This document shows, in pieces, positions 2,712 through 57,540 of a DNA stretch of 64,000 nt. A program made the translations under genes and the position numbers. Position 1 is the stretch's first letter, and every line of letters begins with the position of its first letter. The notes under the pieces were generated by a model that was not told where the DNA came from, ran no database searches, and saw only the letters and a program-made list of their open reading frames with translations. The stretch is from Halorientalis persicus (lineage in GTDB: Archaea > Halobacteriota > Halobacteria > Halobacteriales > Haloarculaceae), in assembly GCF_900110215.1 (NCBI RefSeq), contig NZ_FOCX01000001.1:62001-126000 (forward strand). The letters are read 5' to 3'.

Positions 2712-3239
2712 TCACTCTTTCTCGAGCCACGCCGAGAGATCCGACACGGCTTCCAGTCCGTCGTGGGCGAGTTCGAGTTCCTCCATGGCGACGCCGGACC
2801 GATCCGCGACGAGTTCCGGCCCGGTCCACTCGACGGGCGTCGCCGAGAGACACCGCCAGCCCCGGACCGGCCGACCGGCCCCGTCGAGCAAGAGGACGTG
2901 AACCGTCCGCGGTTCGATCGTGCCGGCGACCCAGTTCTGGAGCCAGTCCCACAGCGTCGTGTCGCCGCCGACGCCACGGCGGAGTTGCAGGTTCGGTGAC
3001 TGGGTGCGGCGGCGCTCGGTCGATGGCAGGGACTCGCGATACTGGTCGAACCAGTCGCCGAAGTCCCACCAGGGGCTGTCGTCGGCGTCGCCGTCGCCAG
3101 TCCCCGACTCCGAGTCGGGTGCCACCTCCACGCGAACGGAGAGGCCCCGGACGGCCGAAAAGCCCAGTCGCTCGCCCGTGCCGATATCGACCGCGAACCG
3201 GTGACTGGGGTACGGGTCCGGCGGGTCGTCAGCGGCCAT
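2712..3239 (-). CDS. Tail-tube protein of phage / contractile injection system type (gp19/Afp1-like), copy 2
   Basis: 175 aa. The N-terminal pattern D-P-Y-P-S-H-R-F-A-V-D-I followed by G-F-S-A-V-R-G-L, and the C-terminal pattern W-T-G-P-E-L then E-E-L-E-L-A-H-D-G-L-E, are hallmarks of the T4 gp19 / TIGR02241 tail-tube family. That family builds the inner tube of phage tails and extracellular contractile injection systems. A Ser/Asp-rich insert of about 30 residues (45-75) interrupts the usual fold. The gene follows its paralogue by 39 nt on the same strand. No sheath, baseplate, spike or AAA+ terminator gene is near. The family call is strong; whether it assembles anything is unknown. Confidence 0.8.
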   Translation of the reverse strand: MAADDPPDPYPSHRFAVDIGTGERLGFSAVRGLSVRVEVAPDSESGTGDGDADDSPWWDFGDWFDQYRESLPSTERRRTQSPNLQLRRGVGGDTTLWDWLQNWVAGTIEPRTVHVLLLDGAGRPVRGWRCLSATPVEWTGPELVADRSGVAMEELELAHDGLEAVSDLSAWLEKE

Positions 3240-3278
3240 CGGTTCGCCCCCGCGACTCGCTCACCAGTTCGGTGTCCG

Positions 3279-3719
3279 TCATGCCACGCGCTCGAACCCC
3301 TCACAGACGAGTTCGAGCGATTCGACGGCCACGTCCTCGCCGGTGGCGTCGAGTCGCGGGGCCTGGTAGGTCGCGGGCCACACGTTCCGGAGCTCCCAGC
3401 GAGCGCCCGCTTCGCCCTCGCGGTCGAGGACGACGATGGCGACCGTGCGCCGGGCCTCGTCGACTTTTCCCTGTTCGACCTGCTTGCGCCACTCGAACAG
3501 TTCGATGGAGTCGTCCGTGACGCCGCTCCGAAGGACGACCCGCCCGTAGCGGTTCAGCCCCGCCAGCTGTCGGACCGTCGGCGGGTCAGTCCCCTCGCGG
3601 TACTCGATCACGTCCGTGCTACTGGTCGGCTGGCGACACGCCGCGAAGCCGGCCTTGGCGATCCCGTCGATCTCCAGCAGGAATCGAATGTTCCGGTACG
3701 GGCCGTGTTTGTCCGGCAT
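3279..3719 (-). CDS. Tail-tube protein of phage / contractile injection system type (gp19/Afp1-like), copy 1
   Basis: 146 aa, the usual length of a tube protomer. The order of motifs is canonical: Y-R-N-I-R-F-L-L-E-I-D-G-I at 8-20, V-I-E-Y-R-E-G at 37-43, L-N-R-Y-G-R-V-V-L-R-S-G-V-T-D at 55-69, a W-R-K-Q-V segment at 77-81, V-W-P-A-T-Y at 113-118, and a closing E-S-L-E-L-V-C-E-G-F-E. This copy is closer to the consensus than its neighbour. ATG 3719 is chosen over upstream in-frame starts because the extra residues are basic shadow sequence. Two distinct tube paralogues side by side mirror complete injection-system loci, but nothing else of such a locus is visible here. Confidence 0.85.
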   Translation of the reverse strand: MPDKHGPYRNIRFLLEIDGIAKAGFAACRQPTSSTDVIEYREGTDPPTVRQLAGLNRYGRVVLRSGVTDDSIELFEWRKQVEQGKVDEARRTVAIVVLDREGEAGARWELRNVWPATYQAPRLDATGEDVAVESLELVCEGFERVA

Positions 3720-3926
3720 GGCTATGCCGTGCCCTCCGGTCGAAGTTCGATGTCGACTGTGCGTCCACCTGCCGCGAGGCTCCGATACATTTCGTTTCAG
3801 CTTCAGATCGGACGTACATAACGGTACCTCCCCAGCAGTGAGAAAACGAAAATCGGTGCGTCCGCGTTCGGTCGCTCCCCGTAGTGTCACACGCTCCAAG
3901 TGCGAAGGGGGTCCCAGACCGTCAGA
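3720..3926. other. Spacer upstream of the tail-tube pair
   Basis: 207 bp without a convincing gene. It must hold the promoter of the tube genes (minus strand) and the 3' end of the ribonucleotide reductase upstream of its stop at 3927 on the other side. The stretch at 3787-3822 (cgatacatttcg... to ...gtacataacgg) is the most AT-rich and could contain TATA-like elements. A run gagaaaacgaaaat at 3840-3853 is also AT-rich. Confidence 0.3.
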
Positions 3927-6900
3927 TCAGCACTCCGACCAGCCACAGGACTCGCAGGTCTTGCAGCCTTCGGAGTAGTACAGCGTCATCGCACCACAGT
4001 CAGGGCACTCCGGGCTCTCGCCGCTGGAGATGAGTTCCTGTGTCGCATCGTCGCCGGACTTGCCCTGCGCTTTCGCGCCCCCGTCCGGTTCGGGCGCACC
4101 CGCGCCGGTGTCGGCGACAGCCTCGGCGTTGGGGTCCTCGGCAGTCTCGGTGTCGGCAGCCGTCTCGTCGAGGGTCTTCTGCTCGGGATAGCCCTTGTCG
4201 ATCTCGTCGTCGAGGTAGCGACGCAGGGCCGTCCCGATAGCGTCCGGGATGGACTGGATCTGCTCGCCTTTGTCCCAGGCGACCTTCGGGCTCCGGGTGC
4301 CCTGGAGTTCGTCGACGATCTCGTTCGGATCGACGCCGCTGCGCAGCGCGGTCGAGATGACCTTCGCCAGCGCCTCCGTGAAGGAGTTCGTGAACCCACC
4401 GGAGTGGCCGATGTTGGCGAACAGCTCGAACGGCTCGCCCGTTTTGGGGTCCTCGTTGATGGTCACGTACACCTTCCCGTAGCCGGTGTCGATGCGCTGG
4501 GAGACGCCCCGGAGCGCGTCGGGCCGGGAGCGCTTGTCGGCGTACTTGCTGGCGTCCAGGTCGAACAGGTCCTCGGCGGACGCGTCGAGTGCGGCCTGCA
4601 CGTCCTCGTGGTTGAGGAACGCGTCGAGGCTACCGAAGATGTCCTCGATCTGCTCTGAGAGGACCTCGGCGGCTTCCTCCTCGTCCATCTCGGAGAACTC
4701 CGCGTTGTCGGCGCGGGTCGTCAACACCTGCTTGCTGCGGGTGCCGTCGCGGTAGTAGGTGACACCTTTCCCGCCGTGTTCGTAGATGTACTCGAACACG
4801 TCCTTGGCGTCCTCGACGGAGGAGTCGTTGGGGGCGTTGACCGTCTTCGAGATGGCCGAGTCGACGCCCTCCTGACAGGCCGTCTGGATCGCGGCGTGCT
4901 GTTTGGCCGTCAGGTCCTGCGTGGTGACGAACAGTTCGCCGATGGCGTCCGGGACGGTCTCTAGCCCATCGATACCGTCGAACTCGTTCGTCGCCATCTG
5001 TTCCTGAGCTTCCTCCTTGACGGCGTCCACGTCGATGCCGTTCTCCTCTAGCACGCGGAGGAAGTAGTCGTCGAACTCGACGAGCATCTCGTCGCCCTGC
5101 ACGTCGTCGGAGACGTTCTTGTAGTAGGCGACGTTGTAGATCGGCTCACAGCCGCCGGTCGTGTTGCCGACCATGCTCGTGGTGCCGGTCGGCGCGATGG
5201 TCGTCGTGTTGTGGTTGCGGATGGCGAAGCCGTCGTCCCACTCGTCGGCGTCGAGACCGGTCTGTTTCTCGAACCACTCGCGGTACTCGGTGGGATCGGC
5301 GTACTTCGAGTTGTCCCACTCGTCGAACGCACCGCGGTCCTCGGCGAGTTCGTGGGAGGCCCACTTCGAGCCGTGGTTGATGTGGCGCATGATCTGGCGC
5401 GCGACCTCGTTGGAGGCCTCGTCGCCGTACTTCATGCCCAGCTGGACGTACAGCTGGGCCAGCCCCATCACGCCCAGGCCGATCTTGCGCATCTCCCGGA
5501 CCTTCTGTTCGATCTTCTCGACCGGGAAGTCGGACATGGTGACCACGTTCTCCAAAAAGCGGGTCCCCATCTCGATGCGGTGGTCGAACTCCTCTCCGTC
5601 GAGTGCCTCGTCGAGGAAGGCGTCGACGGCGTCTTCCAGACTGTCGTACTCGTCGAGATGCTCCTCGGACCAGAGCCGCCAGTCCGGCGCGTCCTCGTCG
5701 GCCAGCGTCGAGAGGTTGATGTGGCCGAGGTTACAGGCCTCGTACTCTTCGAGCGGCTGTTCGCCACAGGGGTTGGTCGCGAGGATGCGGTGGTCGGGAT
5801 GTTCCTCCACGTCGAAGGAGTGTTCCTTGTTGACGCGTTCGAGGTAGATCACGCCGGGTTCGCCGTTCTCGTGGGCACCCTCGACGATGTGTTCCCAGAC
5901 CTTCTCGGCGGGCACCGAGAGGACCTCACCGACCTCGACGTGCTCGCCGAGCCCGAACATGTCGTACAGTTCCTTGGTCTCGGGCGTGGCGACGTGGGGT
6001 TCGTCGGTGCGCGGGTTGGTGAAGGTGAACTCCTCGCCCGCTTTCACCGCGTCCATGAAGTCGTCGGTGATACCGACGGAGATGTTGAAGTTCGACAGGT
6101 GACCCTCGACGGCGTTCCGGAGGTGTTCGGGAACCTTGCCGTCGTCGTCGATGAGTTCGCGCGCCTCGTCGAGTGCGTCGGCAAAGGAGGTGTGCGTGAA
6201 GTCGTCGGGGTCGTTCAGGCGCAGGGTCTCGGCCAGGCTCACGTCCTTGTTCTTGGCGTGGATGAACTGGATCACGTCCGGATGGGAGACGCGCATGACG
6301 CCCATCTGTGCGCCCCGCCGGGCACCGCCCTGGGCGATGGTCTCGCACATCTGGTCGTACGTGCGCATGAACGTGATGGGGCCGGAGGCGATCCCACCGG
6401 TCGAGCCGACGGCGTCGCCGTAGGGACGGAGTCGCCAGAAGGCGTACCCCATCCCGCCACCGCTCTGGAAGACCTGTGCGGCTTCCTTGGCGGTCTCGTG
6501 GATGTCGTCGATGTCGTCCTCGGGCGAGTCGACGAAACAGGCCGAGAGCTGCTGGAGTTCGTCGCCCGCGTTCATGAGTGTCGGCGAATTGGGCATGAAG
6601 GCGAGTCGCTCCATCAGGTTCTGGAACTCCGCGGCGGTGTCCTCGACGTGTTCTCGGACCGGCTCGGGGAGTTCGGGGACCAGCGTGTCGTAGGCGAACT
6701 TGTTGACGTTGTAGATAGAGAGTTCGGTCTCGGCGTCCGAATCGGCGGTGACGCCGGCTCCGAAGACATCCGCGGCGAGTTCGTCCCGTCGCGGGTGGTC
6801 GGGTTTGAGCTGGTCGGGCGTGACGGTGATCTCCAGATCCCGCTTCCCGGCCTCGAAGACGGCCTCGGCGAGAGCGATGTTCTTCCCGACACGCTCGAAG

Positions 6901-7067
6901 AGATCTTCCTGCTGTTCGATCAGTTCGCCGTCGGCGTCTTTCCGCAGATACCGCGCGGGGAGAATGTTGTGGTAGGCATTGCCGGTGAGGCGCGCTTCGA
7001 GGGTGTCGCCCTCGGTACGCTTGATCGGCAGCGTCACCTCGTCGGTCGAGAGGTCGTGCCGACTCAC
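3927..7067 (-). CDS. nrdJ: Adenosylcobalamin-dependent (class II) ribonucleoside-diphosphate reductase
   Basis: Reduces ribonucleotides to deoxyribonucleotides by B12 radical chemistry. With a GTG start at 7067 the protein has 1046 aa. Visible motifs: A-C-F-V-D-S-P (first active-site Cys), N-P-C-G-E-Q with catalytic Cys near 434 and the Glu two residues on, a P-T-G-T-T-S-M-V-G loop, a TSCPD-type domain near 880-980, and a C-terminal zinc ribbon (C-P-D-C...C-K-T-C...C-G-W...C). No intein interrupts the catalytic motifs. The frame stays open to a TTG at 7241, but those 58 extra residues are basic and unlike the rest. GTG 7067 has the purine-rich run ggaagggggg about 8 nt upstream, so I prefer it. 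Confidence 0.93.
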   Translation of the reverse strand: MSRHDLSTDEVTLPIKRTEGDTLEARLTGNAYHNILPARYLRKDADGELIEQQEDLFERVGKNIALAEAVFEAGKRDLEITVTPDQLKPDHPRRDELAADVFGAGVTADSDAETELSIYNVNKFAYDTLVPELPEPVREHVEDTAAEFQNLMERLAFMPNSPTLMNAGDELQQLSACFVDSPEDDIDDIHETAKEAAQVFQSGGGMGYAFWRLRPYGDAVGSTGGIASGPITFMRTYDQMCETIAQGGARRGAQMGVMRVSHPDVIQFIHAKNKDVSLAETLRLNDPDDFTHTSFADALDEARELIDDDGKVPEHLRNAVEGHLSNFNISVGITDDFMDAVKAGEEFTFTNPRTDEPHVATPETKELYDMFGLGEHVEVGEVLSVPAEKVWEHIVEGAHENGEPGVIYLERVNKEHSFDVEEHPDHRILATNPCGEQPLEEYEACNLGHINLSTLADEDAPDWRLWSEEHLDEYDSLEDAVDAFLDEALDGEEFDHRIEMGTRFLENVVTMSDFPVEKIEQKVREMRKIGLGVMGLAQLYVQLGMKYGDEASNEVARQIMRHINHGSKWASHELAEDRGAFDEWDNSKYADPTEYREWFEKQTGLDADEWDDGFAIRNHNTTTIAPTGTTSMVGNTTGGCEPIYNVAYYKNVSDDVQGDEMLVEFDDYFLRVLEENGIDVDAVKEEAQEQMATNEFDGIDGLETVPDAIGELFVTTQDLTAKQHAAIQTACQEGVDSAISKTVNAPNDSSVEDAKDVFEYIYEHGGKGVTYYRDGTRSKQVLTTRADNAEFSEMDEEEAAEVLSEQIEDIFGSLDAFLNHEDVQAALDASAEDLFDLDASKYADKRSRPDALRGVSQRIDTGYGKVYVTINEDPKTGEPFELFANIGHSGGFTNSFTEALAKVISTALRSGVDPNEIVDELQGTRSPKVAWDKGEQIQSIPDAIGTALRRYLDDEIDKGYPEQKTLDETAADTETAEDPNAEAVADTGAGAPEPDGGAKAQGKSGDDATQELISSGESPECPDCGAMTLYYSEGCKTCESCGWSEC

Positions 7068-7587
7068 GGCCGCTTCCCCCCTTCCGGCGCTGTCTGACGT
7101 ACGATTCGCGACTGGGTCCTGGGTCTCTGACCTGTCATTTGTGACGGAACTCGTGTTGTTGCGGGTGGCAAATAACCCTTGTCGTTGGGGCGTTTTCCGC
7201 GTCGATACAGATGTAACTTGCTTGTCATTCCGTACCCGCAAGCACCGCTTCGCGGGCGTGATTGCTACGCTCGATAGCGAGGGACGGACACTTCTTAAGC
7301 CTGGGCAGACCGGAGTGAAAGTGAAATCGCTACCTCCAGAACCCGAAGACGAGGGCGGAGTTTCCAGTGGAAATTGGAGGGGGTTCGGGTGTCGAATCCC
7401 ACCCCAAGAGCGGCGTTTCTTCGAAAACGCTGACGGGCGAAGAAAACATCTCGGAATCCACAGATGTCGGCAGGATGCGCGGGTCAGTGCTGATCGCGGG
7501 GCCTGCGAGCCGCGCGCGTCGCAACCTCGACACGAAAAGCGGGGGCTGGCCGGTACGTTTTATTGTGGGGCGGCGGTACTGTCGGCT
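7068..7587. other. 520-bp intergenic region with nrdJ promoter, ORB-like dyad and hairpin
   Basis: Longest gene-free stretch in the window. On the minus strand a TATA-like gttatttg (7169-7177) would start an nrdJ transcript with a leader of about 75 nt. Further upstream lie an ORB-like dyad with G-run (7361-7383) and a 6-bp hairpin with a cttcga loop (7413-7430). GC content drops around 7200-7480 relative to the flanks. No tRNA and no convincing ORF was found. A TATA-like ttttatt at about 7558-7564, 24-30 nt before ATG 7588, fits a leaderless plus-strand transcript of the next gene. Confidence 0.45.
7361..7383 (+). promoter_or_regulatory. ORB-like dyad followed by G-run
   Basis: The sequence TTTCCAGTGGAAA is a 5-bp-arm dyad (TTTCC/GGAAA). 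After a short spacer it is followed by GGAGGGGG. This is the layout of archaeal origin recognition boxes: dyad core plus G-string on one side. Only one copy was seen, and no orc1/cdc6 gene lies in this window, so it may be an isolated Orc1 site, an ordinary operator, or chance. Confidence 0.4.
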
Positions 7588-7791
7588 ATGTTACCCGTCC
7601 AACTGGGTCCGCTGGGGTCCCCGCCCGCGCTGTTGCTCGGTCTGCTCGCGCTCGCTGCGGTGATCGTGGTCGGCCGCATCCTGTTGAGCCTCGCCTGGAA
7701 ACTGGTCGTGATCGCGCTCGTCGTCGTGGCGGCGCTGTGGGTGCTTGGTGCGATCAGTTTGGGCGACGTGCTGGTCGCCGCGCCCTACTGA
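7588..7791 (+). CDS. Small two-helix membrane protein, 67 aa
   Basis: Hydrophobic throughout: segments at about 13-29 and 37-57, with a short R-I-L-L-S-L-A-W-K turn between. No known domain. The start ATG 7588 lies 24-30 nt after a TATA-like ttttatt, consistent with a leaderless mRNA. Its 3' end overlaps the convergent trpG by 7 nt. Function unknown; the length and hydrophobicity could fit a small accessory or envelope protein. Confidence 0.6.
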   Translation: MLPVQLGPLGSPPALLLGLLALAAVIVVGRILLSLAWKLVVIALVVVAALWVLGAISLGDVLVAAPY

Positions 7792-8411
7792 TCGGCCGCC
7801 CAATCGAGGAAGTTCCGGACCACGTCGTGGCCCACCGCGGTCAGGACCGACTCCGGGTGGAACTGGACGCACTCGATGGGATACTCGCGGTGGCGAATCC
7901 CCATCACCAGGTCCTCGCCGTCGTTCTCGCAGGTCGCGGTCACGTCGAAACAGTCCGGCACTTCGGTCGCGACCAGCGAGTGATAGCGCCCGCCCTGGAA
8001 GCCCTGGTCCAGGCCGGCGAATACTCCGTTCCCGTCGTGATCGATGGCGAACGCCTTCCCGTGGATCGGTTCCGGCGCGCGCCCGACGGTCCCGCCGTAG
8101 ACGTGGGCCGCCGCTTCGAGGCCGAGGCAGACGCCCAGCGTCGGCACGTCGGGGCTCACCTCGCACAACACGTCGTTGGTCACGCCCACGTCCCGTTCGT
8201 TCGCGGGGTGGCCGGGGCCGGGACTGATCACGATGGCGTCGGGGTCGACCGCACGCACGTCCGCGAGCGAGGCCGTGTTACGCAGGACTTCGGTGTCGGC
8301 GTGTTCGCTGACGTACTCGACGAGGTTGTACGTGAACGAGTCGAAGTTGTCGACGAACAGCACTTTCTGGCGACCCTCGTCGACTGCGGTGCCATCCTGG
8401 GCGGCGCTCAT
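7785..8411 (-). CDS. trpG: Anthranilate synthase component II (glutamine amidotransferase)
   Basis: Releases ammonia from glutamine for anthranilate formation by TrpE. 208 aa, class-I amidotransferase. Oxyanion-strand motif S-P-G-P-G-H-P at 63-69, nucleophile Cys95 in G-V-C-L-G, and His185/Glu187 in F-H-P-E-S complete the triad. The residues after the nucleophile read L-E-A rather than the common H-Q-A, so a local variation exists beside the active site. Last gene of the trpDFEG operon; its ATG overlaps the trpE stop by 4 nt, implying coupled translation and near-equal stoichiometry with TrpE. Could in principle serve PabB, but the operon points to tryptophan. Confidence 0.92.
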   Translation of the reverse strand: MSAAQDGTAVDEGRQKVLFVDNFDSFTYNLVEYVSEHADTEVLRNTASLADVRAVDPDAIVISPGPGHPANERDVGVTNDVLCEVSPDVPTLGVCLGLEAAAHVYGGTVGRAPEPIHGKAFAIDHDGNGVFAGLDQGFQGGRYHSLVATEVPDCFDVTATCENDGEDLVMGIRHREYPIECVQFHPESVLTAVGHDVVRNFLDWAADQ

Positions 8412-10081
8412 CGGGACACCCCCTCGGCGTCGGTCGCCGGACTGTCCGGGGCATCCGCCTCGTCGGGATTCGCGTCGGCCTCCACGGGCTGATCGGCGAT
8501 CGCGTCCAGCGCGGTCAACACGCCGTCCATCTTCTTTTCGGTCTCGTAGTACTCGCTCGCAGGGTCGGAATCGGCGACGATGCCCGCGCCGGCCTGGACG
8601 GTGATGCGGTCGAGGTCGTCCGCGCGGTCGGCAGTGTACGGTCCGGTGCCGCTTTCGACCGTCGCCGTCCGAATCACGATGGCGAAGTCGGTGTCGCCGG
8701 TCCAGGAGTAGTAGCCGACGCCGCCGCCGTAGAGGCCGCGTGGCTCGGGTTCGAGGTCGTCGATGATCTCCATGGCGCGGATCTTCGGTGCGCCCGAGAG
8801 CGTCCCCGCGGGGAAGGCCGCCCGCGTCGCGTCGAACTGGTCTGCGTCGTCGGCGAGTTCGCCCGTCACGGTCGATTCGATGTGCTGGACGTGGCTGTAC
8901 TTCAGGACGTTCATGAACTCCTCGACGCGGACGCTGCCGGCCTGTGCCACCCGGCGCACGTCGTTGCGCGCCAGGTCGACCAGCATCGTGTGTTCGGCCC
9001 GTTCTTTCCCGTCCGCGAGCATCTCGCCGGCCAGCCGGCGGTCCTCGACCGGCGAGGTCCCGCGGTCACAGGTCCCCGCGATGGGGTTGGAGACGATCCG
9101 GTCGTCCCGAACCGAGATCAGCGTCTCCGGGCTCGCGCCGACGACGGTCAGCCCGTCGTAGCCCAGCAGGTACATATACGGCGAGGGGTTCACGGCCCGG
9201 AGCGACTCGTAGAAGGCCAGCGGGTCCACCTCGCCGTCGAGTTCGCGCTTCCGAGAGATGACGCCCTGATAGATGTCGCCGTCGAGGACGTGCTCCTTGG
9301 CGCGCTCGACCGCCTGTTCGTAGTCGACCCGTGGGTCGGCCCGTTCGGATTCGAGGGTGAAGCCGCCTGTCTCGACGGCCACGTCGGCTTCGAGCAGGGC
9401 CGCGACCCGCTCGGCTTCGGCTTCGAGTTCGTCGTAACGCTCGCCCGCGTCCTCGTCGGGGGTCACCAGCGGCGTGAACACCAGCGAGACGGTGTCGTCC
9501 CTGTCGTCGAAGACAAGCGTCTTCGTGTTCAGGACGAACTGCGCGTCGGGCAACCGTCCCTCGGGGTGATCCAGCCCCACCTCGTCGAGCCACATCTCGT
9601 AGACGGCATCGTAGGAGAGAAAGCCCACGAGGCCGCCGTCGAGGTGCTGGCGATCCGCGCCGTTGAACCCCCGCAGGGTCACGTCCGGGAGCGCGTGTCG
9701 GAGGTGATCGACGGCGTCGGCGTCGTCACGACCCGCCGTCTCGATCCGGCCGGCGTAGCGGTCGTCGAAGGTTTCGACGCTCGCTCCCTCGCTCTCGACG
9801 GTCACGACCGCCTCGGGGTCGTAGCCGACGAACGAATAGCGGGCGTGGCGTTGCTCCTTTGTCGGCGCGAACGCGCCGTCCGGGTCGCTGGAGGCAACTT
9901 TCTCGGCGCTCTCCAGCAGGAACGCGTAGGGTGCGGGCTCGGCGTCGGTCGTCCGGCCCGTCAGCGCGGCGTAGGCCGCCAGCGGTTCCACGTCGGCGGG
10001 GAGCTCCGCGGCGACACGGACGACCGCCGGGCCGTCGGTGTCTGCCAGTTCCACGAACTCCTCGCGGCTTTTGTCCATCAT
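8408..10081 (-). CDS. trpE: Anthranilate synthase component I
   Basis: Converts chorismate plus ammonia to anthranilate. 557 aa. The N-terminal regulatory domain has the L-L-E-S motif at 55-58, which in this family forms part of the tryptophan-binding pocket, so feedback inhibition is likely. The C-terminal chorismate-binding domain shows G-A-S-P-E-T, P-I-A-G-T, L-V-D-L-A-R-N-D, and the F-P-A-G-T-L-S-G-A-P-K signature, all intact. The C-terminal tail is Asp/Ala-rich and probably disordered. The start is ATG 10081 in the ATGA shared with the trpF stop; a second ATG follows immediately. Confidence 0.95.
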   Translation of the reverse strand: MMDKSREEFVELADTDGPAVVRVAAELPADVEPLAAYAALTGRTTDAEPAPYAFLLESAEKVASSDPDGAFAPTKEQRHARYSFVGYDPEAVVTVESEGASVETFDDRYAGRIETAGRDDADAVDHLRHALPDVTLRGFNGADRQHLDGGLVGFLSYDAVYEMWLDEVGLDHPEGRLPDAQFVLNTKTLVFDDRDDTVSLVFTPLVTPDEDAGERYDELEAEAERVAALLEADVAVETGGFTLESERADPRVDYEQAVERAKEHVLDGDIYQGVISRKRELDGEVDPLAFYESLRAVNPSPYMYLLGYDGLTVVGASPETLISVRDDRIVSNPIAGTCDRGTSPVEDRRLAGEMLADGKERAEHTMLVDLARNDVRRVAQAGSVRVEEFMNVLKYSHVQHIESTVTGELADDADQFDATRAAFPAGTLSGAPKIRAMEIIDDLEPEPRGLYGGGVGYYSWTGDTDFAIVIRTATVESGTGPYTADRADDLDRITVQAGAGIVADSDPASEYYETEKKMDGVLTALDAIADQPVEADANPDEADAPDSPATDAEGVSR

Positions 10082-10719
10082 GCGCTGACCACCGCACTCT
10101 CGGCCCGCTCGACGAACCGCCGGACCGCATCGTGGTCCTTGAGGCCACCCTCGGACTCCACACCGCTCGCAACGTCCACGGCGAAGGGTTCGACGGTTTC
10201 GGCCGCCTCGGCGACGTTGTCCGGCGTGAGCCCACCGGCGAGGATCACCGGCACGTCGAGACTCGTGACCAGGTCCGCCGTGCGCTCCCAGTCGTGGGTC
10301 TCGCCGGTCCCGCCACCGCCCTGCTCGTCCACGGAATCGATCAGGAGGGCGTCGGCCGCGTCGGCGTAGGTATCCACGGCGGAATCGGTCGCGTCGACGG
10401 CGGCGATCACCTGCGCCGGCGCGCGCTCACGCACCGCCGCGATGTCGTCCGGCCCCAGATTCCCGTGCAACTGGACGGCGTCAGGTTCGACGCGTTCGAC
10501 CAGTTCGACGGCCCGGCCGACGCTGTCGGGCATCGTCACCAGCACGCTCGTGACGAAGGGCGGGACAGCAGCCGCGAGTTCGGCGGCCTGCTCGACCGGG
10601 ACCTCGCGTGGCGTGTCCACCGTGACGGCGGCAGTCAGCCCCACCGCGTCCGCGCCGGCGGCGACGACGGCCTCGAGGTCCGACTCGCGCGTGATGCCAC
10701 AGATCTTCGTTCGCGTCAT
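10078..10719 (-). CDS. trpF: Phosphoribosylanthranilate isomerase
   Basis: Third step specific to tryptophan synthesis: Amadori rearrangement of PRA to CdRP. 213 aa, TIM barrel. Catalytic Cys7 sits in T-K-I-C-G-I-T, the strand D-A-V-Q-L-H-G and the acid Asp in L-L-I-D-S follow, and the phosphate-binding end reads G-G-L-T-P-D-N-V then V-D-V-A-S-G-V-E. It is framed by ATGA overlaps with trpD upstream and trpE downstream. trpC, trpB and trpA are not in the window, so the pathway is split between at least two loci. Confidence 0.94.
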   Translation of the reverse strand: MTRTKICGITRESDLEAVVAAGADAVGLTAAVTVDTPREVPVEQAAELAAAVPPFVTSVLVTMPDSVGRAVELVERVEPDAVQLHGNLGPDDIAAVRERAPAQVIAAVDATDSAVDTYADAADALLIDSVDEQGGGGTGETHDWERTADLVTSLDVPVILAGGLTPDNVAEAAETVEPFAVDVASGVESEGGLKDHDAVRRFVERAESAVVSA

Positions 10720-27749: not shown

Positions 27750-28436
27750 TCAGTAGATGAGGTCGTCGTCGTTCTCGACCATGTACAGGGTGCGGGCGGC
27801 GATGTTGACGGCGTGGTCGCCGACGCGTTCGAGGTCCCGGATGGTCAACAGGAGCCGCGAGACCTCGGTCATGAACGTCTCGATGTCGTCTTCCTGGATG
27901 CCGTCGCGTTCGTCGAGTTGGGTCTCGATGAGGTCGCGGACGACGGTCTCGGAGGCGGCCTCACAGTGGGCGTCGATGTCGTCGTCGCGCTCGGCGATCT
28001 CGAAGCAGTCTTCGGGGTCCTGTTCTGCGTAGGCCAGCATGGCGTCCTCGACCATGTCCAGCGTCTCGTCGCCGATGGACTGGATGTCGACGTCGGGGAA
28101 CACGTCGCGTTCGGCCTCCAGCGCGTACTCGCCGAGGTTCGTGGCGAGGTCGCCGATCCGTTCGAGGTCGGTGATGATCTTGAACGAGGCGGCGATAAAG
28201 CGCAGGTCGCCGGCGACGGGTTGTTGCAGTGCAAAGAGGTCGATACAGTCCTGCTCCAGATCCAGATAGAGTTCGTTGATCTCGTGGTCGCCCTCGATGA
28301 CCTCGCGAGCGAGGTCCGCGTCTTTCCGTTCGAGGGCGTCCAGTCCCATTCGGAACCGTTCGAGGACGACCTCGCTCATGTAGAGGACGTCGTCTTCGAG
28401 GTCCGCCAACTGCTGCTGATAGTCATCACGCGGCAT
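27750..28436 (-). CDS. phoU: Phosphate-signalling protein PhoU, copy 2
   Basis: 228 aa, two three-helix PhoU repeats. The metal-binding motifs are E-I-N-E-L-Y-L-D-L-E-Q-D (first repeat), D-L-E-R-I-G-D-L-A-T-N and D-L-E-R-V-G-D-H-A-V-N-I (the paired E-R-x-x-D). It normally restrains Pst uptake and the phosphate regulator when phosphate is plentiful. It is a close paralogue of the gene just upstream: both share the run Q-D-C-I-D-L-F-A-L-Q-Q-P-V-A-G-D-L-R-F. ATG 28436 gives M-P-R-D-D-Y, aligning with M-A-R-D-E-F of the other copy. Last gene of the pst island; 301 bp separate it from copy 1. Confidence 0.92.
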   Translation of the reverse strand: MPRDDYQQQLADLEDDVLYMSEVVLERFRMGLDALERKDADLAREVIEGDHEINELYLDLEQDCIDLFALQQPVAGDLRFIAASFKIITDLERIGDLATNLGEYALEAERDVFPDVDIQSIGDETLDMVEDAMLAYAEQDPEDCFEIAERDDDIDAHCEAASETVVRDLIETQLDERDGIQEDDIETFMTEVSRLLLTIRDLERVGDHAVNIAARTLYMVENDDDLIY

Positions 28437-52984: not shown

Positions 52985-53050
52985 CGGTGTGACACGGCGA
53001 AAAACCCGGAGTCCGCTACCTTTTTGCCGGCCCTGACGGAAGCCACGTGT

Positions 53051-53926
53051 ATGCTCACCGTCCGGGCACCGGCCACGAGCGCGAACCTCGGGAGTGGCTT
53101 CGACGTGTTCGGGGTCGCGCTGGACCGCCCGGCGGACGTGGTTCGTGTCGAGAAGGCCGACGAGATCAGCATCGAGGTCACCGGCGTCGGGAGTCAGTAC
53201 ATCCCGGAAGACCCCGACAAGAACACCGTCGGGGCCGTCGCCGAGGCACTGGACGCCCCCGCTCGCATCGAGATCGACAAGGGGGTGCGCCCGGCCTCGG
53301 GGCTCGGGTCGTCGGCCGCCAGCGCCGCCGCGGCCGCCGTCGGATTGAACGAACTGTACGACCGTGGCCACAGCCGCGAGGAACTGGTCCCCATCGCCGC
53401 CAAGGGGGAGGCCGTCGTCTCGGGCGACGCCCACGACGACAACGTCGCCCCCTCGATCATGGGCGGGTTCACCATCGCCACCGACGACGGCGTCACGAAG
53501 GTCGACGCCGACATCCCGCTGGTGGCCTGCCTCCCCGACATCGTCGTCTCGACCCGGGATGCCCGCCGCGTCGTCCCCGAGACGGCACGGGTGGAGCAGT
53601 TAGTGGAGACCGTCGGCTGGGCCGCGACGCTGACGACCGGGATGCACCGTGACGATCCCCACCTGGTCGGCGAGGGGATGAACGACACCGTCGTCACGCC
53701 GGCCCGCGCCGAGTTGATCGACGGCTACAGTCGGGTCCGTGACGCCGCCCTCGACGCCGGCGCGACCGGCGTCACGATCAGCGGCGCGGGGCCGACCGTG
53801 ATCGCCGCCTGCGAGGACGGCGACCGCCGGGCCGTCGGCACCGCGATGATCGACCAGTTCAACGCCGTCGGCGTCGAGGCCCGCGTCTACCAGACCGAGA
53901 TCGGCAGGGGCGCGACGCTGTTCTGA
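53051..53926 (+). CDS. thrB: Homoserine kinase
   Basis: Phosphorylates homoserine on the way to threonine. 291 aa, GHMP kinase. Start M-L-T-V-R-A-P-A-T-S-A-N-L-G-S-G-F-D is diagnostic, the ATP loop is P-A-S-G-L-G-S-S-A-A-S (about 79-89), and the C-terminal G-A-T-G-V-T-I-S-G-A-G-P-T glycine motif is intact. Monocistronic; no other thr genes in the window. Confidence 0.94.
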   Translation: MLTVRAPATSANLGSGFDVFGVALDRPADVVRVEKADEISIEVTGVGSQYIPEDPDKNTVGAVAEALDAPARIEIDKGVRPASGLGSSAASAAAAAVGLNELYDRGHSREELVPIAAKGEAVVSGDAHDDNVAPSIMGGFTIATDDGVTKVDADIPLVACLPDIVVSTRDARRVVPETARVEQLVETVGWAATLTTGMHRDDPHLVGEGMNDTVVTPARAELIDGYSRVRDAALDAGATGVTISGAGPTVIAACEDGDRRAVGTAMIDQFNAVGVEARVYQTEIGRGATLF

Positions 53927-54165: not shown

Positions 54166-56169
54166 CTACCAGCGCTGGCGTTCGCTCTCGTTGATCCAGC
54201 GGAACCGCTCTTCCCCGGTGGTGGCCTCGGGCGCCTCCTCGGTGCCGGGTTCCTGCCAGGCGACACAGAGACTGCCGCCGACGATGCCGACCAGCATCCC
54301 GATGACGAGGCCGCCGAACGCGCCGATCAGCGAGAGGATGGACATGGCGATGCCGGTGACGCCGATCAGCGTCGAGAGCTGGGGTTTCACGATGGCGAAC
54401 ACGCCACAGGCGACGACCATGGCCGCGAAGACGATGCCCAGCGCCGAGAACGACGGCCCCTGCGTCGCGGGGATCATCTGGAGCCGGATCGGGATGGCGG
54501 CGATGATCATACCGCCGAGCACCAGCAGCGTGCCGCCGGCGAAGGGGCGCCGGGACCGCCACCGGGCGAACGCGCCCGGCTGGGCCCCCAGCCGCTCTTC
54601 CTCCTCGACGACCCGCTCGTCGCCGCCCAAGGAGGGGAGACCGAAGTCTACGTCGCCGAGGATCAGCCCGTAGCCGGTCCCGAGGAACTGGCCGTAGAGG
54701 ACGAACGCGACGACGATCAACGGCCCGGTCGCCGGAAGGAAGCCAAGCAGCGACCCGCCGTAGAACGCGATGCCGACGAGCAGGCCGAACCCGAGACCCA
54801 TGCTCCCGGCGGTGACCGCGAGGGCGGCCCGCGTCAACAGCGGGACCAGCAGTTTCTGTGTCGCCGTCGAGCGCCGCGAGAACATGATCACCGTGTTCGT
54901 GAAGTCGTTGATCGTCCGCGAGACGTAGGCCACGAAGGCAAGTCCCAGCACGACCGACATGGCGATCCAGATGCCGAAACCAGTGGAGATACCGGTCGCA
55001 CCCAGCGTCGCCGCCAGTTCCGCGAACAGGTCGAGTCCGATCGCGAGGGCGACGAAGACACCGCTGAGCAGGCCGGCACCGAGCGACGCGACGACGCCCG
55101 CCCGGACTTCCTCGCCGGGCACGAACGTGGTCGCGTCGATTTTCTCCATCATCAGCCCGTAGCCGTTGCCCAGCACCTGGCCGTAGACGACCAGCGCGAC
55201 CAGCCCCGCGAGCCCGAGGTTCGGGCCGACGCCGACCGAACCCAGCACGAGGACGGCCACGCCGAGGGCGGTCCCGTAGACCAGCCCCATGCTCCCGGCG
55301 GTGACGGTGAGCGCCCCGCGGGTCAACAGCGGGACCAGCAACTTCTGGGTGAGCCGTGAGCGCCGCGAGAACATGATCACCGTGTTCGTGAAGTCGTTGA
55401 TCGTCCGCGAGAGGACGGCGGCGAACAGCAGGCCGAACACGAGGCCGGCGGCCACGAACAGCGCCGCTCCGAACCGCGGGGACTGGCTCCCGGCCAGCGC
55501 CGCGATCTCCGTGAGGGCCGCGTCACCGCCGAGCAGTGAGAGGACGGCGACGCCGGCGATGCCGCCCCCGACGGCGCCCACGATGGCCGCGTTCTGTTCG
55601 TCCGCGGTCCGGCCGGGCGTGAACCAGTGCGCTTCGAGCAGGCTGCCGTAGACTGCGCCCATGAGCTGTCCGTACAGCAGGTACCCGAAGATCACCGAGA
55701 AGTCGGCAAGCGGCGGGAGTCCCGCGTTGTATCCCAGAATCAGCAAGGCGATGGGCATGACGTAGCCGAAGAAGCCGTAGGCGAGGATGTGGCCGTAGAG
55801 AAGGCCGAACCCGCCGGCGGTGACGCCCAGTGCCGACCGTTCCAGCAGTGGCACGAGAATCCGCTGGAGAACCCCGATGTTCCGGGATAGCATGATGATC
55901 GTGTTCGTGAAGTTGTGCACGGTCCGTGAGAGAAAGACGCCGAAAAGCAGTGCGAAGATCACGCAGGTTCCGATCCAGACCAGCCACCCGGTGGTGAGCC
56001 CACTCCCACCGACCAGCCAGGCGAAATACTCGAACCCCTGCGTCTTGCTCCCGTTCGGCCCCGGCAGGAACTGGATCAACAGCCCCGCCGGAACCGCAGC
56101 GACCAGTGCACCGATCACCGCTGCAACTTGCTCGTCCCGCCCGAACGTCGAGGTGATTTTCGTACTCAT
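54166..56169 (-). CDS. Large membrane protein with three repeats and a DUF6114-like C-terminus
   Basis: 667 aa. Three units of about 170 residues each carry the signature L-S-R-T-I-N-D-F-T-N-T-V-I-M-F-S-R-R (variant L-S-R-T-V-H-N-F-T-N-T-I-I-M-L-S-R-N in the first), then L-V-P-L-L-T-R-x-A-L-x-V-T-A-G-S-M-G-L, and membrane helices. The last 110 residues (R-R-P-F-A-G-G-T-L-L-V-L-G-G-M-I-I-A-A-I-P) look like DUF6114. Units 2 and 3 share a 55-bp identical DNA stretch. ATG 56169 is preceded by a leader hairpin. The repeats may pack like transporter half-domains or form a lattice; function unknown. Confidence 0.75.
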   Translation of the reverse strand: MSTKITSTFGRDEQVAAVIGALVAAVPAGLLIQFLPGPNGSKTQGFEYFAWLVGGSGLTTGWLVWIGTCVIFALLFGVFLSRTVHNFTNTIIMLSRNIGVLQRILVPLLERSALGVTAGGFGLLYGHILAYGFFGYVMPIALLILGYNAGLPPLADFSVIFGYLLYGQLMGAVYGSLLEAHWFTPGRTADEQNAAIVGAVGGGIAGVAVLSLLGGDAALTEIAALAGSQSPRFGAALFVAAGLVFGLLFAAVLSRTINDFTNTVIMFSRRSRLTQKLLVPLLTRGALTVTAGSMGLVYGTALGVAVLVLGSVGVGPNLGLAGLVALVVYGQVLGNGYGLMMEKIDATTFVPGEEVRAGVVASLGAGLLSGVFVALAIGLDLFAELAATLGATGISTGFGIWIAMSVVLGLAFVAYVSRTINDFTNTVIMFSRRSTATQKLLVPLLTRAALAVTAGSMGLGFGLLVGIAFYGGSLLGFLPATGPLIVVAFVLYGQFLGTGYGLILGDVDFGLPSLGGDERVVEEEERLGAQPGAFARWRSRRPFAGGTLLVLGGMIIAAIPIRLQMIPATQGPSFSALGIVFAAMVVACGVFAIVKPQLSTLIGVTGIAMSILSLIGAFGGLVIGMLVGIVGGSLCVAWQEPGTEEAPEATTGEERFRWINESERQRW
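54869..54923 (+). repeat. 55-bp direct repeat, copy 1, within DUF6114-type gene
   Basis: Identical over 55 bp to 55358-55412. It encodes the S-R-T-I-N-D-F-T-N-T-V-I-M-F-S-R-R segment of repeat unit 3. Identity at synonymous sites suggests recent duplication or gene conversion between units. Confidence 0.7.
55358..55412 (+). repeat. 55-bp direct repeat, copy 2, within DUF6114-type gene
   Basis: Second copy of the 55-bp identity, encoding the same segment of repeat unit 2. The matching segment of unit 1 (about 55880-55931) has diverged. Confidence 0.7.
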
Positions 56170-56177
56170 TATATGCC

Positions 56178-56200
56178 CCGCAAACCCCCAGGTTTTGCGG
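56178..56200 (-). promoter_or_regulatory. 5' leader hairpin of the DUF6114-type gene
   Basis: On the mRNA sense (minus) strand CCGCAAAACC-TGGG-GGTTTGCGG forms a 9-bp stem with one bulged A. It ends 8 nt before ATG 56169. A TATA-like ttttatg (about 56230-56236) would place the transcript start near 56205, so this hairpin would be the very 5' end of the message. Confidence 0.5.
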
Positions 56201-56322
56201 CTCTCTGCCCCAGTCATTCCGTAGTCGGCATAAAAAGTATTCTGCACCTATTGACCGGCAGTTTAAGGTATGGGAGGCACGCGGGCGACACCGAAAGCGC
56301 GGTGACCACGCTGGTGGACAGG

Positions 56323-57540
56323 TCAGTTCGGGGAGTGGTCAGACTCGGCACCGTCCGGCCGGACCGGCTCGCCCCGCCCGTCCTCGATCCGGACCCCATC
56401 GGTTCCGGCCCGTCCCGAGAGTTCCCGCTGAGGATAGGGAATCGTGACGCCCTCGCGGTCGAACGCCGCCTTGACTCGCTCGACGACTTCGGCCTGTGTG
56501 CGCCAGCGTTTCGGGGGCGTCGGCTGTTCGATCCAGAACCGCATCTCCAGGACGACGGCCGAGTCACCGAACTCCCGGGGGAAGACGTTCGGTTTCGGCG
56601 TCTCCGCCACGTGATCGACGGTCTCGATGGCCGCGGTCGCGACCTCGACGGCTTTGCCCGGATCCGCGTCGTAGTCGATGCCCACGTCGACACGCAGGCG
56701 GAGTCGCCCCTTCTGGCTCCGGTTGGTGATGGCCCGGTCGGCGACCCTGTCGTTGGGGATGACGACGAACTCCCCGTCGAAGTTCTCCAGCCGTGTGTTG
56801 ACGATGGTGATGTCGGTGACGACGCCTTCCTCGTCGCCGACCTCGACCCAGTCGCCGATCTCGAACGGCCGGGAGAACATCAACACGAATCCGGCGATCA
56901 GCGAGCCCAGCGTCTGTCTGGCGGCCAGTCCGACGACGATCCCGAGAAAGCCCGCCCCGACCAGCAGACCGCCAAGATCCACGCCCCAGAAGCCCAGCAG
57001 GACGAACGCGACGACCACGAGCAGCCCGATCTGACCGACCCGGGTGACGATCTGTTCCTGGTGGGCCGTCATCCGGTCGGCCTCCCGACTGAACGCGGCC
57101 ACGGTGTCTTCGAGCAGGCCCATCCCCACGTAGGCACCGACTACCAGCAGGCCGGAGAACACCCAGGCGAACACGTCGGCCAGCGAGAACTGCACGAGCG
57201 CGTAGGACTGTGCGATGAGCCACTGCTGGTTCCAGATCACCAGCAGCGTCACCCCCGTGACGAGACAGATGCCGACCTGGAGCGACCGGAGCAGGAGGAC
57301 GACCGGCGTCGTCACTGGAAACCGGTCGTTTACCTGTCCGACGAAGTCGTCGATGGTCCCGCCGAGGTACCGCCTGGCGACGAGTCGCCTGCACTGCCGG
57401 AGCAAGAGCGGGACGACGAGCGCAGCGAGCGCGATGGCCGCGAGCGCGAGGGCGACGGTGGCGAGAAGTCGCTCCTCGGTCGACGACAGGGGGTCGAGTA
57501 CGGATCCGAACTGGGCGACGAGCGGTAAACGTACGATCAC
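56323..57540 (-). CDS. Small-conductance mechanosensitive channel (MscS family)
   Basis: 405 aa. About four or five transmembrane helices, the pore-lining TM3 with G-L-L-V-G-A-G-F-L-G-I-V-V-G-L-A-A-R-Q, the beta domain (F-E-I-G-D-W-V-E-V-G...G-V-V-T-D-I-T, P-N-D-R-V) and the C-terminal alpha/beta cage. Starts at GTG 57540, ends in an acidic tail. It releases osmolytes during hypo-osmotic shock, a realistic danger for a halophile. No accessory gene nearby. Confidence 0.93.
   Translation of the reverse strand: MIVRLPLVAQFGSVLDPLSSTEERLLATVALALAAIALAALVVPLLLRQCRRLVARRYLGGTIDDFVGQVNDRFPVTTPVVLLLRSLQVGICLVTGVTLLVIWNQQWLIAQSYALVQFSLADVFAWVFSGLLVVGAYVGMGLLEDTVAAFSREADRMTAHQEQIVTRVGQIGLLVVVAFVLLGFWGVDLGGLLVGAGFLGIVVGLAARQTLGSLIAGFVLMFSRPFEIGDWVEVGDEEGVVTDITIVNTRLENFDGEFVVIPNDRVADRAITNRSQKGRLRLRVDVGIDYDADPGKAVEVATAAIETVDHVAETPKPNVFPREFGDSAVVLEMRFWIEQPTPPKRWRTQAEVVERVKAAFDREGVTIPYPQRELSGRAGTDGVRIEDGRGEPVRPDGAESDHSPN

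Follow-up and report, generated by a model that had tools for sequence, protein, structure and literature searches.

A Halorientalis membrane protein of three tandem DUF6789-like units, each bearing a predicted helical hairpin, fused to a DUF6114 domain

The window (64,000 bp of the Halorientalis persicus genome, the whole stretch of DNA that was analyzed) contains a gene for a 667-aa membrane protein, P0001, in which three tandem units are fused to a DUF6114 domain, and each unit is a DUF6789-like core of four transmembrane (TM) helices with an added hairpin (Table 1). At one syntenic locus the relatives of this gene have from zero to five such units, the hairpin codons of units 2 and 3 are homogenized within species, and hairpin-unit genes are linked to genes for SCP2 sterol-carrier-type proteins and for members of the DUF6230 and DUF6114 families, both of which are described in Pfam as of “unknown function.” The reading preferred here, held tentatively and with a chance put a little short of even, is that the protein serves an SCP2/DUF6230/DUF6114 lipid-handling module as its membrane component and that its hairpins are cytoplasmic docking sites. 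Fusion and repeated neighborhood tie DUF6114, DUF6230, and the DUF6789-like unit to SCP2 lipid carriers, and this tie gives a testable guess at an archaeal function.

Table 1. Features of the P0001 gene region, numbered from the first base of the window
Feature	Position (bp)	Strand	Residues (aa)	Basis or remark
Gene for P0001	54166..56169	minus		ORF and translation; three 4-TM units and DUF6114
Unit 1 with hairpin	55612..56145	minus	9-186	Unit profile matches, 33-aa insert
Unit 2 with hairpin	55105..55611	minus	187-355	Unit profile; AlphaFold2 unit model, pLDDT 84.7
Unit 3 with hairpin	54625..55104	minus	356-515	Unit profile matches
Hairpin loop region of unit 2	55312..55416	minus	252-286	Limits drawn by hand on the model
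Motif copy 1, SRTVHNFTNTIIMLSR	55882..55929	minus	81-96	
Motif copy 2, SRTINDFTNTVIMFSR	55363..55410	minus	254-269	
Motif copy 3, SRTINDFTNTVIMFSR	54874..54921	minus	417-432	
55-bp exact repeat, unit 2 copy	55358..55412	minus		
55-bp exact repeat, unit 3 copy	54869..54923	minus		
DUF6114 domain	54253..54570	minus	534-639	PF19609, E 7.4e-25
Upstream neighbor, MscS-like	56323..57540	minus		Named from sequence
Downstream neighbor, homoserine-kinase-like (ThrB)	53024..53926	plus		Marker of the syntenic locus; named from sequence

The first-pass annotation of this DNA placed the gene correctly, and it reads on the minus strand. When translation starts at the ATG at 56169 the product is 667 aa long, and alignments of orthologs begin at the same methionine; an alternative GTG 78 bases upstream would give 693 aa. 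The opening stretch (MQNTF) of this extension (56170-56247) is common to loci L004, L005, and L055, and the segment is perhaps a conserved promoter region and not coding. Loci are cited here by L-numbers, among which L077 is the row of the window protein, L006 and L008 are those of sister species, and L005 is that of H. pallida. Labels such as ThrB, PdxS, MscS-like, and alpha/beta hydrolase were assigned by reading the sequences, are presumed identities, and serve as position markers only. All relatives that bear names belong to Halorientalis; the H. regularis protein is 93% identical to P0001 over its full length, and the best H. pallida segment is 94% identical. An Rfam search gave no match at the gene, a scan for sigma-70 promoters and terminators (which does not cover archaeal promoters) found none, and no relative turned up in one scan of viral contigs.

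The description of P0001 as a triplicated membrane protein with a DUF6114-like end is borne out, in that there are three 4-TM units followed by a true PF19609 domain (88.1 bits against a cut-off of 27.9, covering model positions 1-106 of 106). All three reported copies of the motif S-R-T-x-x-x-F-T-N-T-x-I-M-x-S-R are present, and the two 55-bp stretches are identical over exactly 55 bp with a mismatch at both ends. They sit within a larger repeat of 169 nt (80% identity, spacing 489 nt), and the units are 38-55% identical in protein sequence (blastp E 1e-25 to 3e-39), which is far above chance. Tandem Repeats Finder reported no row within the gene. The window has a second exact direct repeat of at least 30 bp (31 bp, at 27793/28781), and no others were found.

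The repeat unit is ~165 aa long and has four TM helices, the second and third of which are separated by a conserved insert of 33 residues. Structure prediction of a single unit, which had been suggested as a check, was carried out with AlphaFold2 on an alignment of 17 unit rows from five related loci and the window, and yielded a 4-TM unit with a helical hairpin (a full-length prediction from five sequences had a pLDDT of 41.6 and was set aside). The predicted helices span residues 6-33, 37-45 (short), 52-89 (long), 93-132 (long), and 140-169, in the order TM1, short helix, long TM2 with its extension, extension with TM3, and TM4; helices 2 and 3 extend beyond the membrane as the hairpin, and the motif is its first arm. 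That arm is amphipathic, as had been proposed (hydrophobic moment 0.57-0.59), and the second arm has a moment of only 0.24-0.34. With the hand-set limits, the unit 2 hairpin carries six positive charges and one negative charge, and loops 1-2 and 3-4 carry no positive charge. Because the hairpin is positive and the other loops are without positives, the established positive-inside rule predicts that the hairpin and both unit ends are cytoplasmic, and four helices per unit would then place all hairpins of a tandem array on one side.

Insert lengths were measured with a core profile from which the hairpin columns had been removed. Hairpin-less units match this profile in one continuous piece (net extra length 3 to 25 aa, loops included), and hairpin units match it as two halves flanking an insert that is exactly 33 aa long in 65 of 70 cases (20, 28, 34, 34, and 34 in the other five). 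The inserts of the window protein are 33, 33, and 33 aa, so it belongs to the hairpin-bearing unit family as defined here (every unit a 4-TM core in which ~33 aa are inserted between TM2 and TM3). The hairpin is 33 or 34 aa long in 25 of 25 single-unit proteins.

No unit scores over any Pfam or NCBIfam cut-off, and the window protein gives no Pfam match to DUF6789 (PF20587) up to E 10. Profile comparison nevertheless recovers the DUF6789 four-helix arrangement (hhalign 98.3%, E 2.5e-14, gapped at the hairpin), against 0.2-0.3% for DUF6114 as the control in the same comparisons; both DUF6789 and the units have four TM helices in the same order with common glycine and aromatic landmarks. When nine hairpin-less haloarchaeal proteins were used for comparison, the units reached 98% and the single-unit set 99%. 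These hairpin-less relatives are 154-219 aa long in the wide search, L113 lying within a longer open frame of 484 aa, and of eight run against Pfam only L120 passes as DUF6789, by 0.1 bit (27.2 against 27.1), with L112 and L116 matching below the cut-off. Because the core profile splits hairpin units around the insert, and given the 98% profile likeness, the unit amounts to a 4-TM core of the DUF6789 type to which a hairpin has been added. P0001 thus differs from DUF6789, which has no hairpin, in its 33-aa hairpins, its three tandem units, and its fused DUF6114 domain. DUF1440 (PF07274) and YqhR (PF11085) are weaker look-alikes of the units.

Comparisons with solved structures gave only distant matches. 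The best Foldseek hit to the unit model has an E of 3.4, too weak to speak against a known fold, the best VIA match is likewise weak (Z 5.3, rmsd 6.8, 133 aligned), and a PDB search with the single-unit profile reached only E 0.093. Rows for FtsX and ABC transporters, near Z 5, were not read as homologs. A TIGR00261 match (E 2.6) was put down to chance, as were matches of relatives below cut-off, for example that of L057 to MctB (E 0.002) and that of L073 to a crotonase model (E 0.0076). Literature searches returned nothing on DUF6114, nothing related (judged by title) on DUF6789 or on Halorientalis with membrane protein and repeat, and nothing joining sterol carrier protein and haloarchaea. 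In a sample of the phylum, 18 of 294 genomes had matches, all in the same order and 16 of them partial. Plasmid records with matches numbered two and one in separate searches; in Natronococcus a unit and DUF6114 lie 7.5 kb apart.

The gene had been called prone to unit gain or loss. This holds as a statement about evolutionary change, and is not supported as one about present-day lability caused by the 55-bp repeat. Unit number is nearly constant in Halorientalis, where seven of eight genomes have three units and one (G076, L055) has two, and variable across genera of the family, where the syntenic locus marked by thrB and/or pdxS has 0, 1, 2, 3, 4, or 5 units. One unit is present in L057, L087, and L088, four in L062, L064, L069, L070, L074, L085, L086, L091, and L151-L153, and five in L056, L067, L068, L071, and L072; in L147-L150 the SCP2 gene and thrB adjoin with no unit gene (the L148 contig ends soon after). 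L147, L149, and L150 have pdxS as well, and two of these four genomes (G056 and G057) carry a single-unit gene and another SCP2 copy elsewhere (L083, L066). At L145 (G127:C27:12000-18129, 3192-5071), on a stretch with no marker gene, a four-unit array beside an SCP2 gene has a frameshift and is split over two overlapping frames. The hairpin is found only in the first and last units of the five 5-unit arrays, and in the last, or the first and last, units of 4-unit arrays.

In a tree of units (built on few columns, with many open forks and with two L005 rows left out), each of the three unit positions of Halorientalis gives a separate clade of orthologs (SH-aLRT 99, 99, and 97 for units 1, 2, and 3), and the last units of long arrays also fall together (95); a grouping of all three Halorientalis units has a support of only 80. 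Unit 2 of L055 is placed elsewhere on a very long branch. The single-unit genes L065, L089, and L090 lie on a long separate branch, and the neighbors of L065 look by eye like branched-chain amino-acid transporter and hydantoinase genes. By the locus counts and the tree clades, unit number changed between genera, and the three positions have not changed since the sampled species diverged. The series of zero to five units at one locus is a natural case for the study of membrane-protein unit amplification.

The 55-bp identity is better explained by protein conservation together with local homogenization of hairpin DNA between units 2 and 3. Codons for the same amino acid in the two units were compared in seven species (H. 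pallida left out). In the hairpin, the units have the same codon within a species in 191 of 226 cases against a derangement mean of 0.703, and 0 of 5039 permutations are as high; the corresponding values are 61 of 115 against 0.467 before the hairpin (265 of 5039 as high) and 110 of 176 against 0.628 after it (2606 of 5039). Paralog-sharing and ortholog-sharing sites stand at 27:0 and 50:10 in the two hairpin halves and at 6:26 and 15:27 in the flanks (the species pairs are not independent). The site patterns agree with the codon counts, and the simplest reading of both is that of short gene-conversion tracts over a strongly conserved segment. Part of the codon sharing could reflect species codon preference, of which the flanks show little. 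That the identity instead stems from a recent duplication and signals present-day unit instability is very improbable. Hairpin identity far above that of the flanks, the two-unit Halorientalis genome (L055), and an H. pallida assembly that breaks exactly at the repeat would all fit such an event, but units 1, 2, and 3 predate the split of the sampled species, codon sharing in the flanks is as expected (after the hairpin) or slightly above (before it), and the break in the H. pallida assembly consists of 97 consecutive N (L005:6824-6920). This run is flanked by two motif copies, the gene reads there as two open frames, and the apparent “insertion” was rejected as a unit gain on account of the N run. 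Passages in two papers describe gene conversion that equalizes genome copies in Haloferax volcanii, a polyploid haloarchaeon, and name homogenization of multigene families as a known outcome of the process (PMC8223754, PMC11276520). In the window gene, by contrast, the partners in conversion would be two repeats within a single gene, with only one segment affected, and the occurrence of conversion is deduced from codon patterns; the hairpin may be a case of gene conversion limited to one functional segment.

The neighborhoods of 47 hairpin-unit loci were compared with those of 11 hairpin-less loci (L082, L112-L121). Since unit-only queries reached 46 of the 47 (L005 was found with the whole protein), neighbors were not selected for; order-wide loci were picked before their neighbors were viewed, 10 of 24 listed full-length hairpin matches from outside the family and 10 of the many partial, hairpin-less matches being taken. 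L145 and L151-L153, unit loci fetched later for their SCP2 matches, are excluded from the 47. An SCP2-type lipid-carrier gene lies within 302 bp in 22 loci, a DUF6230-like and a separate DUF6114 gene are on the same stretch in 11, and DUF6114 is fused to the units in nine; at least one of these three arrangements is found in 38 of 47, and none in L065, L073, L074, L087-L090, L123, and L124. The hairpin-less loci have SCP2, DUF6230, or DUF6114 in 0 of 11 cases (Fisher p 7e-7, or 6e-5 without the fusions, for loci that are not phylogenetically independent). In the 11 loci with DUF6230-like genes, these lie 195-593 bp away in eight, ~1.5 kb away in L129 and L131, and 4.2 kb away in L122; L129 and L131 have unit, SCP2, DUF6230, and DUF6114 all together. 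All four sampled SCP2 proteins are over the Pfam cut-off (PF02036), and PDB 2cx7 matches with E 7e-14. Two of three sampled stand-alone DUF6230 proteins (L061, L122) pass the cut-off of PF19741, the third scoring 26.1 against 27.5, and the remaining DUF6230-like genes were called with a profile built in this analysis. Judged by eye, the N-terminus of the DUF6230 partner resembles a signal sequence.

SCP2 genes are linked to unit genes at the thrB/pdxS locus and also in a second setting, of which L126 is an example. Among the neighbors in L126 are an AMP-ligase, a ferredoxin, an acyl-CoA dehydrogenase, an R2-like (ribonucleotide-reductase-small-chain-like) protein, and one more SCP2. By cross-locus similarity, AMP-ligase relatives are present at least in L066, L083, L122, L127, and L128, and acyl-CoA dehydrogenase relatives at least in L066, L083, L127, and L128. 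In relatives SCP2 is a soluble partner encoded beside the unit gene; the window gene itself does not include it. H. salina and H. marina (L006, L008) have a divergently oriented SCP2 gene beside the three-unit gene, between it and the MscS-like counterpart, whereas the sub-lineage of the window (L004, L005, L007, L075-L077) has no SCP2 gene at the locus and would, by inference, have lost it. The window genome has six SCP2 matches and, among the matches listed, none is beside the P0001 gene. The best-scoring SCP2 genes are mostly unit-adjacent, which is partly circular because the profile (A7) was built from 12 SCP2 genes adjoining unit genes, and this is not used as evidence. P0001 itself is joined to the proposed module by its fused DUF6114 domain, with SCP2 adjacent only in L006 and L008; it differs from the loci with separate DUF6230-like and DUF6114 genes in having no DUF6230 gene nearby.

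That the unit gene adjoins DUF6114 in some genomes and forms a fusion with it elsewhere is a pattern classically taken to indicate a joint function, and the repeated SCP2 neighbors, accompanied in some loci by acyl-CoA genes, point to the handling of lipids or acyl chains. In the mechanism proposed, the protein would be a tandem array of three DUF6789-like 4-TM units, each with a cytoplasmic two-helix hairpin, fused to DUF6114; a soluble SCP2-like carrier would dock on the positively charged hairpins and pick up or deliver its ligand, a lipid or acyl compound, at the array; DUF6114 would act on the outer side, as would the DUF6230 partner; and more hairpin units would offer more docking sites. 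The DNA identity of units 2 and 3 would be maintained by selection on the hairpin combined with short gene-conversion tracts. Several observations weigh against this lipid-handling role, namely the lack of SCP2 at the locus in the window sub-lineage and of DUF6230 beside the fused gene, the nine loci without any partner, the adjacent thrB and SCP2 genes without a unit gene in L147-L150, the middle units of long arrays that have no hairpin, and the lack of a match to a lipid-transfer fold among solved structures. The fullest reading, that of a previously undescribed archaeal lipid machine in which an array of zero to five units presents near-identical hairpins, kept alike by gene conversion, to SCP2 while DUF6114 and an exported DUF6230 face outward, is unlikely.

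A family-wide gene order could also have kept SCP2 and the unit gene together by descent, and the SCP2 linkage would then be a by-product of conserved order near thrB/pdxS, with the function of the protein unrelated to it. The distribution of SCP2 partly fits, since 17 of the 22 cases are in one family, 15 of these 17 with a thrB and/or pdxS marker, and since L147-L150 keep SCP2 without a unit; but another family also has SCP2 next to its single units (L126-L129, L131), in genus g7 the linkage is found outside the thrB/pdxS locus (L066, L083), and the DUF6230/DUF6114 linkage recurs in four families, which makes this explanation rather doubtful. Similarly unlikely is a role in moving ions or small solutes, as a transporter or channel made of 4-TM repeats with the hairpin as a gate or coupling helix. 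Tandem TM repeats are typical of carriers, the unit model has long cytoplasmic helices, and an MscS-like gene is near in six of nine Halorientalis loci; sub-cut-off matches to MscL (E 0.053, L069) and a sodium/proton exchanger model (E 0.077, L059) are at chance level. Against it, there is no Pfam or NCBIfam transporter match above a curated cut-off and no clear PDB match, blastp with the L006 protein at 1e-10 recovers no counterpart of the MscS-like neighbor at any other locus, and a gate would be missing from the hairpin-less middle units.

The first-pass annotation had proposed that the protein may form a scaffold or lattice at the membrane, assembled through the amphipathic motif. The motif is repeated and unit number varies, as such a role would have it; however, the hairpin is equally present in single-unit proteins and therefore does not depend on repetition, and the recurrent neighbors that were found are a lipid-carrier family and DUF6230/DUF6114. 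The proposal finds no support beyond the amphipathic motif and is quite improbable, and the neighborhood points to the lipid-handling module instead.

Two further groups of genes touch on these families. Elsewhere in the same genome, L078 (G000:C76:66000-82000, 5442-10154) is a cluster of three DUF6114 and two DUF6230-like genes, one of the latter recognized by our own profile only and not by Pfam, and continuing into five PKD domains. Near the DUF6114 genes of L125 and L122, the frames L125:7317-8855 and L122:3154-4608 have apolipoprotein-like matches below the Pfam cut-off; these are possibly further parts of the lipid module, or only helical repeats.
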